Origin: Lachnospiraceae bacterium
GTDB taxonomy: Bacteria > Bacillota > Clostridia > Lachnospirales > Lachnospiraceae
Reading direction: 5' to 3'
DNA: 64,000 nt
NCBI GenBank assembly: GCA_017936785.1
Contig: JAGBEV010000014.1
Location: 82,985 to 146,984 of the forward strand
Positions 28,573-63,662 of the stretch are shown here, in pieces. The notes beneath the pieces were generated by a model that did no database searches, had not been told where the DNA came from, and saw only the letters and a program-made list of their open reading frames with translations. Numbering within the stretch: the stretch's first letter is position 1; every line of letters begins with the position of its first letter. The translations under genes were made by a program, and so were the position numbers.

Positions 28573-29988
28573 TCACTCTTTCTGCAAAATTTGCAGGATT
28601 TCTTCCACAACTATTCCTACACCCTCGGATTTATGGGATTTTGTCACATAATTTGCAGCATTTTTTGCAGTATCAGAAGCATTTTCTACCGCAATACCGA
28701 TTCCTGCATAAGCTAACATATCTGCATCATTATCTCCGTCACCAAATGCCAGACACTCCTCAGGCTCTATGCCGATTTGTTCCAAAAGCCACTTCAAAGA
28801 AGTTCCCTTTGATACTCCCTCCGGCGTAATTTCTATTAAATGCTCAATGGATGAGGTTATGGATATGCCTTTTATTTCATTTGTTAATTTTTGTTTTAAC
28901 TTTTCTCTTTCATCTTTTTGTGCACTGATAAATGAAATACTTTCCAATTCTTTTTTATGTTCCTTAACAAACCCGCCCATATCATCCACTGCATTTCTGG
29001 TGGTGCGCACATATTCCGCTGCTTTTTGGGAGCCAAACCTTTCCGGATGTTCATAATATTCCTTATCACAATAGGCTCTTCCCTGCCAGAACACTTCCAT
29101 TGTTATAAGAAATCTCTCTTTTGCCTGTAAATATTCCTTCAAAAGTGCTTCTGCCCCATCCTCCTTCAGGAAGCTGCGGCGGATACATTCCCCGTTCTGA
29201 CTGACTACAGCCCCATTAGATGTAATGGCATATTGCGTTTTGGCTATTTCGGCAATTTCCGCCGGAAGGGTATCATATGCCCTTCCGCTGGCGATGATCA
29301 ACCCGATTCCATTTTCCATGGCAGCTTTTATGACCTTTGTGGTATGTTCAGATAATTTTCCCTGTTCATTCAGAATGGTTCTGTCCAAGTCTGTGGCGAT
29401 GCAGCGGATATTAGTGGAAATACTTAGTTTACTTTTTAATTTATCAGGTTTTAATAACACCTGATATGTGTGATAAATCTGATCTGCTGTCTGAAACAAT
29501 TGTCCGCTGTCCTCCGTCATCACAAGATATTCCACATCATACAAAAAAATGCGCAGATGAGTCAGCGTCATTCCGTTTCTGATATAAAAGGCAATTCTCC
29601 GCCTGCGCAGCTCCCGGTCCCATGGATCAATGCCAAATCTTGGGTTCTCTACCTCCAGGATCAGATTTCCCAGTTCTTTCTTTCTGATTTCTTCTTTCAG
29701 CATGGCAAAACACCGGCTGCCATACCCCTTTCCCCGTATGTCTCCCGAAACTGCAAAATAGTCAAGGAGTACTGCATCTTTTGCTTCAGAAGTCACACAA
29801 AAACAATAGCTGACCATTTTTTCCGTTCCATTTAAATATTCAAAAATGCCATAGCATAAATATTTTCCCGATTCCCGAAGCATCAGAATCCTTTCTAAGG
29901 GCTTGATTTCTCCCTTTGCAAAGTCCTGCGGCATTTTTTTATGATAGATTTCCGCAATTTCTTCTTTATTTAATAATCGGATCATCAT
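28573..29988 (-). CDS. GNAT acetyltransferase fused to Cof-type HAD phosphatase
   Basis: A 471-residue two-domain protein. Residues about 1-165 form a GNAT N-acetyltransferase with the acetyl-CoA loop DIRGKGYGSRCFAMLKEEI. Residues about 190-470 are a Cof/YidA-type HAD hydrolase: motif I IATDLDRTIL, motif II IIASGRAY, a C2 cap, and motif III/IV FGDGDNDADMLAYAG. Cof hydrolases dephosphorylate sugar phosphates and cofactors. The join is continuous with no frameshift. Substrates of either half are unknown. It stands alone between xpt and the divergent amino-acid transporter. Confidence 0.85.
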   Translation of the reverse strand: MMIRLLNKEEIAEIYHKKMPQDFAKGEIKPLERILMLRESGKYLCYGIFEYLNGTEKMVSYCFCVTSEAKDAVLLDYFAVSGDIRGKGYGSRCFAMLKEEIRKKELGNLILEVENPRFGIDPWDRELRRRRIAFYIRNGMTLTHLRIFLYDVEYLVMTEDSGQLFQTADQIYHTYQVLLKPDKLKSKLSISTNIRCIATDLDRTILNEQGKLSEHTTKVIKAAMENGIGLIIASGRAYDTLPAEIAEIAKTQYAITSNGAVVSQNGECIRRSFLKEDGAEALLKEYLQAKERFLITMEVFWQGRAYCDKEYYEHPERFGSQKAAEYVRTTRNAVDDMGGFVKEHKKELESISFISAQKDEREKLKQKLTNEIKGISITSSIEHLIEITPEGVSKGTSLKWLLEQIGIEPEECLAFGDGDNDADMLAYAGIGIAVENASDTAKNAANYVTKSHKSEGVGIVVEEILQILQKE

Positions 29989-30133: not shown

Positions 30134-30171
30134 AACCCACAAATGGATTTATGAAAAGAGGAGGAACTATC

Positions 30172-30969
30172 ATGAAAAAATGTAACAAACTTGTTGCACT
30201 GGGATTGATCGGCGCTATGGCATTATCCTTATGTGCATGCGGCAGCAAAGTAGCAGAGAATACTGTTTTCTCTGTAGATGATCTGCCCGGAAAGACAATC
30301 GGTGTTCAGTTAGGTACAACCGGCGATATCTATGCATCCGATTATGAAGAGGAAGGCTCCACCATCGAGCGTTTCAACAAAGGGAATGATGCGGTTCTTG
30401 CTTTAAAGCAGGGCAAGATCGACTGCGTTATCATTGACAGCCAGCCTGCTCAGGCATTTGTCAGCAAAAATGATGATTTAACCATTCTGGATGAGGAATT
30501 TGCTGTGGAAGAATATGCGATCTGCATCAGCAAGGACAACAAGGAATTAACAGAAGCATTCAATGATGCTTTAGCAGAATTAAAAGCTGACGGAACACTT
30601 GACCAGATCGTTGCAAATTACATCGGTGATGATACAAAGGGTACCTGCCCTTATGAAACACCCGAAGGAACCGAATATCCTAACGGAACCTTGACAATGG
30701 CAACCAATGCCGCTTTCGAACCCTATGAATATTATGCAAATAATGAAGTTATAGGTATCGACGCTGACATGGCAAAAGCCATCTGTGACAAGCTGGGATA
30801 TGAACTGGTGATAGAGGATATGGAATTTGATTCCATTATCACTGCTGTTCAGTCCGGTAAAGCTGATTTCGGCGCTGCCGGCATGACAGTAACTGAAGAC
30901 CGTCTGAAGAACATTGATTTCACAGATTCCTATACAACCGCAACACAGGTTATCATTGTAAGAAAGTAG
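30172..30969 (+). CDS. Amino-acid ABC transporter binding lipoprotein, apparently circularly permuted
   Basis: A 265-residue family 3 solute-binding protein with a lipoprotein signal (ALSLCACGS; lipidated Cys 21 or 23). The order of its parts is reversed. Residues 33-152 are what is normally the second half: LPGKTIGVQLGTTGDIYA, LALKQGKIDCVIIDSQPA, EEYAICISKDNKEL, LAELKADGTLDQIVANY. After a linker, residues 171-265 are what is normally the first half: GTLTMATNAAFEPYEYY, GIDADMAKAICDKLGY, AVQSGKADFGAAGMTVTED followed by RLKNIDF with the carboxylate-binding Arg244. The chain ends at the hinge (QVIIVRK). All halves are complete. AGGAGG before the ATG at 30172 fixes the start. It is followed by a terminator, then the permease and ATPase genes. 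Confidence 0.88.
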   Translation: MKKCNKLVALGLIGAMALSLCACGSKVAENTVFSVDDLPGKTIGVQLGTTGDIYASDYEEEGSTIERFNKGNDAVLALKQGKIDCVIIDSQPAQAFVSKNDDLTILDEEFAVEEYAICISKDNKELTEAFNDALAELKADGTLDQIVANYIGDDTKGTCPYETPEGTEYPNGTLTMATNAAFEPYEYYANNEVIGIDADMAKAICDKLGYELVIEDMEFDSIITAVQSGKADFGAAGMTVTEDRLKNIDFTDSYTTATQVIIVRK

Positions 30970-30991
30970 TAAAATGTGATATGATGTACAA

Positions 30992-31020
30992 GGGCTGTAG
31001 CTTCCGCTATAGCCCTTTTT
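30992..31020 (+). terminator. Terminator/attenuator between binding protein and permease
   Basis: A 9-bp stem (gggctgtag with ctatagccc, one G-U pair), 6-nt loop, then five T. Partial termination here would leave more binding protein than membrane components, a common arrangement. Confidence 0.72.
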
Positions 31021-31046: not shown

Positions 31047-31733
31047 TTGGATTCATTTATTCAAAAATTTCAACAATGTTTTATTGACGATAACCGGTAC
31101 ATGTATTTGTTAAAAGGTTTGGGAACAACTCTTTCCATCACTCTTTTTGCTGTGATCCTGGGCGTCTTTCTGGGATTTTTGGTGGCGATCATCCGTTCCA
31201 CCTATGACAAAACAGGCAAATTAAAAATTCTGAATTTTATTTGCAATTTTTATCTGACGATTATCCGCGGAACTCCTGTAATGGTGCAGTTATTGATCAT
31301 GTATTATGTCATATTTGCAACCTCTTCCAACAAAACGGTGGTTGCAATTTTATCCTTTGGTATTAACTCAGGCGCCTATGTGGCTGAAATCGTCCGTTCA
31401 GGTATCATGTCCATTGACCAGGGACAGTTTGAAGCCGGCAGAAGCCTTGGTTTCTCCTATCCCAGCACCATGGTATATATTATCATGCCCCAGGCATTTA
31501 AAAATGTTCTTCCTGCTCTGGCAAACGAATTTATCGTATTGTTAAAGGAAACTTCCATTTGCGGTTATATCGGCTTATCTGATTTGACCAGAGGCGGCGA
31601 TATTATCCGAAGCGTTACATATGAAGCTTTCCTTCCCCTGATCGCCGTGGCTTTGATCTATTTATGTATGGTTATGATTTTAACTGCACTTGTAAAGAAA
31701 CTGGAAAGGAGGCTGAGAAACAGTGAGCGATAA
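31047..31733 (+). CDS. Amino-acid ABC transporter permease
   Basis: A 228-residue polar amino-acid (HisMQ/GlnP-type) permease with about five membrane helices. [21 protein letters not shown] lies near the conserved entry motif. The EAA loop that contacts the ATPase is [20 protein letters not shown]. The start is a TTG at 31047; AGGAGG at 31034-31039 is 7 nt away and no ATG is as well placed. The stop overlaps the ATPase start by 11 bp, indicating coupling. Confidence 0.93.
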
Positions 31734-32508
31734 AAATACTTTTAATTATGAAACACAGGCACCCATTCAGGATGGAGATATTTTATTTCAGATCGATAAT
31801 CTCTGTAAATCCTTCGGCTCCCTTTCTGTACTGAAAAACATTTCCACTGAGATCAGAAAAGGGGAGGTTGTGGTTATTATCGGACCTTCCGGTTCCGGTA
31901 AATCCACGTTCCTGCGTTCTTTAAATCTGTTGGAAGACCCTACGGAAGGAACCATTCTCTTTGAAGGAAAAGATATTACGGATAAACATGCCAATGTCAA
32001 CAAATACCGCCAGAATATCGGTATGGTATTCCAGCATTTTAATCTGTTTCCTCATATGACTATCCTGCGCAATATGACCCTTGCTCCCGTTAAGCTTTTG
32101 AAAATGCCGGAAGCCGATGCCCAAAAAATGGCAATGGATTATTTAAAACGTGTGGGATTAGAGGAAAAAGCCAGCGCCTACCCCAACCAGTTATCCGGCG
32201 GGCAGAAACAGCGTATTGCCATTGTAAGGGCATTGTGTATGCAGCCTGATGTATTATTATTCGATGAACCCACATCCGCTCTTGATCCCGAAATGGTAGG
32301 GGAAGTTCTGGAAGTTATGAAGGATCTTGCCAAATCAGGCATGACCATGCTGGTAGTAACCCATGAAATGGGATTTGCCAAAGAAGTCGGCTCCAGAGTT
32401 TTATTTATGGATGACGGAAGGATCGTGGAAGAAAATACCCCTCATGAAATCTTTTCCAATCCCCAAAGCGACAGATTGAAGGATTTCTTATCCAAGGTAT
32501 TGATCTAA
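31723..32508 (+). CDS. Amino-acid ABC transporter ATP-binding protein
   Basis: A 261-residue GlnQ/HisP-type ATPase. Walker [11 protein letters not shown]-loop [11 protein letters not shown], signature [11 protein letters not shown], Walker [14 protein letters not shown] and switch His VTHEMGFA are all intact. The start is GTG at 31723 with AGGAGG 10 nt upstream. The N-terminal 18 residues before the ABC core are longer than in many homologues. It completes the importer with the permuted binding protein and the TTG-start permease. The transported amino acid cannot be read from the sequence. Confidence 0.94.
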
Positions 32509-63409: not shown

Positions 63410-63662
63410 GGAAAGAGGAAAACAGGGAGGGGCGCATTGGGCTTTTGGGGGCTGGAGTTAAAAAATGGGTTTTTCTAACAGAATGGGGAAGTTTATGGCT
63501 TCTGCCGGGTCGCCGTCAATGCGGCATCCATGCCGCAGAGACGGCTGAACAGCCCGTCCGGGGCTGTTCTCCCTGGGTATTGTGCCATTCTGTAAGAAAA
63601 ATCACATTTTTTAACAACAGCCCCCAAAAGCCCAATGCGCCCCTCCCTGTTTTCCTCTTTCC
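63410..63662. repeat. Very long inverted repeat, element B copy 1 (253 bp)
   Basis: Arms of 77-78 bp (63410-63486 and 63585-63662) pair; the outermost 45 bp are exact, and the remainder has about five differences. The 98-bp spacer holds two further perfect hairpins. One is gccgtc-aa-tgcggcat-cc-atgccgca-ga-gacggc (63512-63545). The other is aacagccc-gtccg-gggctgtt (63548-63568). The whole would form a three-way junction as RNA or a cruciform as DNA. No open frame in it looks like a gene. Confidence 0.85.

Follow-up and report, generated by a model that had tools for sequence, protein, structure and literature searches.

The window analysed here is a stretch of DNA of 64,000 nucleotides. At 30172..30969 of its forward strand lies an open reading frame which, as judged from its translation, phmmer and Pfam, encodes a family 3 solute-binding lipoprotein of 265 amino acids whose parts come in permuted order. 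The frame opens with an ATG at 30172 and closes with a stop codon at 30967-30969, and a ribosome binding site, GGAGG (30160..30164, forward strand), can be read off the sequence, ending 7 nt 5′ of the ATG. The first codons (30172..30240, forward strand) specify a signal peptide with the lipobox-like motif LCAC; Cys23 would be the lipidated residue. On the same strand follow the genes for an amino-acid ABC permease (31047..31733; PF00528 and HEQRo_perm_3TM) and a GlnQ-like ABC ATPase (31723..32508; PF00005). The lipoprotein signal expected by the original prediction can be read in the translation, and the complete ABC operon that it described was confirmed by Pfam and NCBIfam. Between the binding-protein and permease genes there is a 12-bp hairpin followed by a U-run (30990..31017, forward strand; fold z −5.4), which may favour output of the binding protein over that of the permease. 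We found no ligand-indicating RNA near the operon in the window, where the only Rfam match was a TwoAYGGAY RNA (63455-63617, reverse strand, 91 bits) 30 kb away. The reverse strand at 28573-29988 encodes a 471-aa protein, with a GNAT acetyltransferase domain (a weak match, 22.5 bits versus 20.7) before a HAD-like hydrolase.

We compared the protein with solved structures and family profiles. In a phmmer search of the PDB, residues 170-265 matched chain residues 8-104 of AncQR (4zv1, 233 aa; 81.5 bits), and residues 30-152 matched chain residues 107-232 (76.3 bits). Nearly the whole AncQR chain is covered once by these two swapped, non-overlapping stretches, and both lobes are complete, in agreement with the original prediction that the usual second half (33-152) precedes the usual first half (171-265) and that all family 3 blocks are present once each. 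PF00497 (SBP_bac_3) scored 128.1 bits against a cut-off of 26.4, not as one collinear match but, as had been predicted, as two partial matches in swapped order: the best stretch joined residues 174-265 to model positions 1-92 of 132, and the other, seen in the whole-genome scan, joined window positions 30448-30627 to model positions 85-131. NCBIfam TIGR01096 also gave two stretches, the best being 33-151 on model positions 124-250. When a canonical close relative (L023) was run likewise as a control, it gave one PF00497 stretch (40-253, model 1-131 of 132), which excludes a profile artefact as the source of the split; set against this single stretch, the swapped stretches bear out the natural circular permutation that had been proposed.

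Canonical proteins, which make up the amino-acid cluster among type II binding proteins, run collinearly from lobe I through lobe II to the last part of lobe I; the window protein lacks this topology. Nor does the chain contain two or more complete domains, as GlnP-type tandem proteins do, and each half is present once: the sole tblastn matches below E 1 in the 64-kb window were the two within the frame itself. No MglB-like or sugar-binding match was found in Pfam, in NCBIfam (17 families) or among the best 60 of 98 PDB sequences. Among the best 60 of 91 PDB chains there was no solved structure with the permuted order, and only the tandem protein 6h30 had a stretch spanning its domain junction. 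The possibility of two unrelated lobes was considered and rejected.

We placed the cut with the lobe limits of TmArgBP. As given in PMC9402392, lobe 1 of this protein comprises residues 1-90 and 190-211, lobe 2 runs from residue 96 (a Gln) to residue 183, and the hinges are residues 91-95 and 184-189; the layout given in PMC4022495 is the same under another numbering. In the phmmer alignment, residues 171-265 of the window protein correspond to residues 8-103 of the TmArgBP chain (4PRS), and residues 35-140 to residues 112-215, where the 4prs chain numbers appear to be offset by one from those of the paper. A rearranged query, in which the QVIIVRK strand was put before the remaining lobe II, gave one stretch on 4prs 95-196. 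By this alignment and the published limits, lobe II starts with the Gln of QVIIVRK and the motif is its first strand, not a hinge, which puts the cut in the loop after that strand. Here the original prediction has to be revised, as it had the chain end at a hinge motif and placed the permutation at the hinge, with altered hinge connectivity, whereas by the alignment the cut lies inside lobe II and both hinge strands would be continuous.

Read along the chain (all on the forward strand), residues 33-109 (30268..30498) form most of lobe II, the canonical second part, according to the AncQR and TmArgBP alignments and the limits in PMC9402392. They are followed by the uncut hinge segment from lobe II to lobe I, FAVEEY (residues 110-115, 30499..30516), aligned to the TmArgBP hinge 184-189, and by the C-terminal strand and helices of canonical lobe I (residues 116-152, 30517..30627; PDB alignment). 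A linker leading from the canonical C-terminus to the canonical N-terminus (residues 153-170, 30628..30681) was delimited in an alignment of 89 permuted proteins. The N-terminal part of canonical lobe I (residues 171-253, 30682..30930; PDB alignment) then leads into the second uncut hinge segment, from lobe I to lobe II, YTTAT (residues 254-258, 30931..30945), aligned to the TmArgBP hinge 91-95, and into QVIIVRK (residues 259-265, 30946..30966), which starts at the residue aligned to Gln96 and is now the last strand of the chain. Both inter-lobe segments (about residues 254-258 and 110-115) are present and continuous in the alignment to TmArgBP. The layout suggests that the termini, and with them the lipid anchor, moved from lobe I to lobe II, the old termini being bridged by the 18-residue linker.

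The linker and the end of the chain are conserved. In a set of 89 distinct permuted proteins, 88 of them 46-93% identical to that of the window, linker length ranges from 15 to 19 residues, 77 of the 89 having 18, and the mean conservation of the linker is 0.72, similar to that of the C-terminal part of lobe I; the linker carries a shared motif, YIG...PY..P....NG. The distance from the strand Gln to the chain end is 6 or 7 residues in 98 of 103 permuted ORFs (94 of these 103 being distinct). Thr49, Thr50, Asp89, Thr239 and Arg244 are invariant in the 89 proteins. Arg244 and Asp89 are identical to the aligned AncQR residues and correspond to R75 and D157 of GlnH, which hold the amino-acid backbone. 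Against four relatives, dN/dS was 0.026-0.050, pointing to purifying selection, although the ratios are rough because dS was 1.4-2.2.

These data bear on the possibility that the gene is a fragment cut from a longer tandem protein, is broken, or results from misassembly. Tandem binding domains do occur in relatives (L115 and L120), and in one relative (L116) the gene is split over two frames. The window gene, however, is an intact frame with its own ribosome binding site, signal and stop, no other copy of either lobe exists in the window, the same order is found in many independent assemblies, and the low dN/dS is that of a maintained gene, as the original prediction, which held it to be intact and not broken, would have it. 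We regard a fragment or artefact as having a negligible chance; a broken gene, a truncated tandem and an assembly error are each ruled out by the conservation of the permuted order.

We conclude that the product of the gene is very probably a functional substrate-binding lipoprotein, circularly permuted by nature, that serves a polar amino-acid ABC importer with one permease gene and one ATPase gene. Once folded, the chain would form a two-lobe flytrap of the ordinary kind, in which neither hinge strand would be interrupted. In lobe I, the conserved linker would bridge what were once the N and C termini; the new ones would lie in lobe II, which the lipid anchor would therefore hold. A zwitterionic amino acid would be held via the retained Arg244 and Asp89 and passed to a homodimeric permease. 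Instead, two copies might complete each other's flytrap, with the last strand or lobe I of one pairing with lobe II of the other in a domain-swapped dimer, or a second binding protein might be needed. In the homologue TmArgBP, the C-terminal helix mediates a domain-swapped dimer (PMC4022495), and at one locus (L050/L124) two permuted genes precede the permease; yet a single chain holds every element of a complete flytrap, and a second permuted gene was seen only in L050 among 80 loci (the best 80 of 263), making completion between molecules improbable.

We analysed how widely the permuted order occurs. A permuted ORF was present in 80 of 80 loci (the best 80 of 263 encoding loci), with 81 permuted ORFs in total; as these loci were found with patterns from the window protein, the figure is not a prevalence, and some of them are the same place twice (for example L012 and L085, or L050 and L124). 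L082 also carries a canonical, diverged binding protein. Records with the permuted order include Kineothrix sp. MSJ-39, Roseburia hominis An869 and Parasporobacterium paucivorans DSM 15970. Of 61 genomes (the window's own and its relatives), 22 had a match at E 1e-30 or better, and 13 of the 22 were of this permuted type. In Lachnospiraceae, the family in which the original prediction had suggested looking for this order, at least 202 of 298 genomes had a match at E 1e-25 or better and at least 57 a full-span permuted one (a manual count of full-span matches at E 4.4e-62 or better, with the tandem protein G202 excluded); the permuted order was seen in all 18 of the 57 genomes from which DNA was examined. 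Among 245 genomes sampled from the order, at least 26 gave matches at E 1e-50 or better, 4 of these belonging to other families, and at least 6 of 398 genomes across the phylum passed E 1e-45, comprising 4 permuted (one, G410, from another family) and 2 canonical. Counts in these large samples are lower bounds, because the best 7 to 10 candidates were scored per genome. Contamination of the window's own assembly (G000) is reported as 8.77%, but the finding does not depend on it, since three genomes of the same genus also have the gene, at 84-91% identity. Because profile searches split permuted proteins into two fragments, such proteins can be mistaken for partial or tandem ones.

The operon is usually kept along with the permuted gene. 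In the 80 loci (best of 263), a permease lies directly 3′ of 79 of the 81 permuted ORFs, and a permease together with an ATPase 3′ of 70; two of the nine ORFs without an ATPase match had less than 1 kb of DNA remaining. A lipobox-like motif was present in 67 of the 81. At L085/L012, no permease was found in the 1.7 kb of DNA examined for L085, and the diverged permuted genes L117, L121 and L122 had neither permease nor ATPase within 2-3 kb downstream. At L050:2969-4729 (= L124), a single permease gene is preceded by two permuted genes in a row, of which the first has diverged more and is followed by the second rather than directly by the permease. Permease and ATPase were both found at 26 of 26 canonical loci (L021-L026 and L135-L154). 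The same operon occurs in six canonical relatives, whose permease is 55-72% identical, and whose binding protein is 49-71% identical per half, to that of the window; permuted and canonical relatives serve the same operon type in related genomes. A 12-bp hairpin in the gap before the permease gene was also found in L009 and L010, and any perfect hairpin of at least 8 bp in 27 of 91 permuted and 9 of 31 canonical loci. Rfam searches of 16 of the 80 loci gave two matches, neither of them on the operon's own strand: a Clostridiales-1 RNA (L075) and a cobalamin riboswitch (L100).

Domain order across loci was read with five segment profiles, in which a, b and c denote the early, middle and late parts of lobe II, the last with the C-terminal helices, and N and n denote lobe I. 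The window type reads abcNn and the canonical type Nnabc. All 20 loci picked from the search of the 298 family genomes for their split matches came out canonical, indicating that the profiles tell the types apart. Eight ORFs have abcNn fused to the permease (for example L015, L018 and L127). At L116:1392-2985 such a permuted binding protein-permease fusion extends over two overlapping frames, either a broken gene or an assembly error. L115:1413-4331 (reverse strand) encodes three near-identical canonical domains and a permease in one chain of 973 aa. A distant fused group (L118, L119 and L120) also has lobe II ahead of lobe I; the profiles caught its lobe II only partly (acNn, abNn and cNncNn), and blastp and tblastn found the remaining lobe II in front in L120 (as L027) and L119. 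L120:2088-5534 (forward strand) combines two lobe II-lobe I domains, a permease and an ATPase in one chain of 1149 aa, with a similar chain in L162/L172. In other families of the phylum, chains like those of the distant fused group occur in L162/L172, L168/L174 and L169, and a canonical tandem fusion in L170; the segment order of L163 and L165 was ambiguous.

A second permuted type was found at L028, L029 and L125, which read cNnab, the cut falling between a lobe II helix and the last lobe II strand. A search with L029 found this type in at least 32 of the 298 family genomes, and of 30 such loci examined (L177-L206), 29 read cNnab and one cNnb. The permeases of L028, L029 and L125 form a separate branch (SH-aLRT 100). 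One bacterial family thus has two permutations with different cuts, and by alignment both types would place both termini in lobe II.

The trees speak to the number of origins of the abcNn type. In the protein tree, the main permuted group was separated from canonical proteins with 100/99 support, and five permuted proteins (L019, L123, L128, L132 and L133) nested among canonical ones. Two changes were needed on the protein tree and three on the tree of each half. A single permuted clade was not rejected by the AU test (p-AU 0.41). This test and the half trees used 75 of 134 rows, namely all 29 canonical or tandem proteins and 46 hand-picked permuted ones, leaving out L020, L117, L121 and L122 (long branches) and three second-type rows. 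The permease tree was poorly resolved, with permuted and canonical lineages interleaved. Parts of the linker motif occur in the five nested proteins as well as in the main permuted group, and for this reason we consider it more likely that the abcNn permutation arose once. It probably came from a tandem canonical pair, as in the permease-fused relatives, in which lobe I of the first domain and lobe II of the last were lost. Such a source is plausible, since tandem domains exist (L115 and L170) and 6h30 is collinear with the window protein across its inter-domain linker. No partial-tandem intermediate of the permuted lineage was seen among the loci examined, and the inter-domain linker of L115 has no resemblance to the permuted linker.

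An origin of this kind could have left the permuted form as a neutral relic of tandem duplication and loss, the two forms being interchangeable. This view concerns why the permutation exists and is compatible with a working permuted binding protein; we give it close to an even chance. Permuted and canonical versions occur in the same operon type with similar permeases, and none of the 57 permuted genomes was among the at least 59 canonical ones. Permuted and second-type (32) genomes likewise shared none (Fisher p 0.0013), and second-type and canonical genomes shared one (G179); we do not rely on this mutual exclusion, because the genomes are related, the best 8 candidates were taken from each, and the number of canonical genomes is a lower bound. 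On the other hand, the second cut, by alignment, again puts both ends in lobe II, and conservation extends to linker and chain end; these findings hint that the position of the tether may be selected. In a broader proposal, which we put forward tentatively and rate somewhat short of even, Lachnospiraceae repeatedly permuted amino-acid-binding lipoproteins, with two cuts in separate transporter lineages, each of which would have shifted both termini out of lobe I into lobe II, and with them the membrane tether or the point of fusion to the permease; tether position would then be selected, since it would govern docking of the flytrap on the homodimeric permease. Protein engineers make use of circularly permuted binding proteins, and such permutation has been invoked for the history of the flytrap fold. 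To our knowledge, natural permuted and canonical pairs are mostly too diverged for comparison; with pairs 49-71% identical and a second cut at hand, the effect of chain order and anchor position on folding, ligand closure and docking becomes testable.

Among known systems, the closest are TmArgBP, AncQR and GlnH (family 3, PF00497), which share with the window protein the same blocks, lobe content, backbone-binding Arg and Asp, and ABC operon partners, and from which it differs in block order, in having its termini, by alignment, in lobe II rather than lobe I, and in its conserved linker. Glycine-betaine- and molybdate-binding proteins have the type II fold. For them, circular permutation relationships were detected with CPSARST between structures of less than 24% identity (PMC2395249), whereas the order of the window protein differs from that of canonical relatives at 49-71% identity per half. 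Natural permutation is thus already known for other binding proteins, both these glycine-betaine binders and TpMglB-2 (Tp0684) of Treponema pallidum, described in PMC4990184 as 'Type Ic / Cluster Bc'. For family 3 proteins, none was found among the matches listed in the literature, mostly open-access, which leaves its absence unproven. TpMglB-2, like the window protein, is a naturally permuted binding lipoprotein of an ABC importer. According to PMC4990184, it still binds ligand and changes conformation, homologues of its topology also occur in Gram-positive gut bacteria, and adaptation to anchoring was raised by its authors as an idea for the permuted sugar binder. It is, however, of the Type I, sugar-binding fold and of another sequence family, and its cut adds a fourth hinge crossing, whereas the window protein, by alignment, keeps the two hinge strands. 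The tandem transporter GlnPQ (6h30) matches residues 33-259 of the window protein in one stretch across its domain junction, so that the second half of its domain 1, the linker and the first half of its domain 2 are collinear with the permuted chain, and its inter-domain linker of 14 residues (PMC8025302) compares with 15-19 in the permuted proteins. GlnPQ nevertheless has two complete canonical domains fused to the permease, whereas the window protein is one permuted domain.
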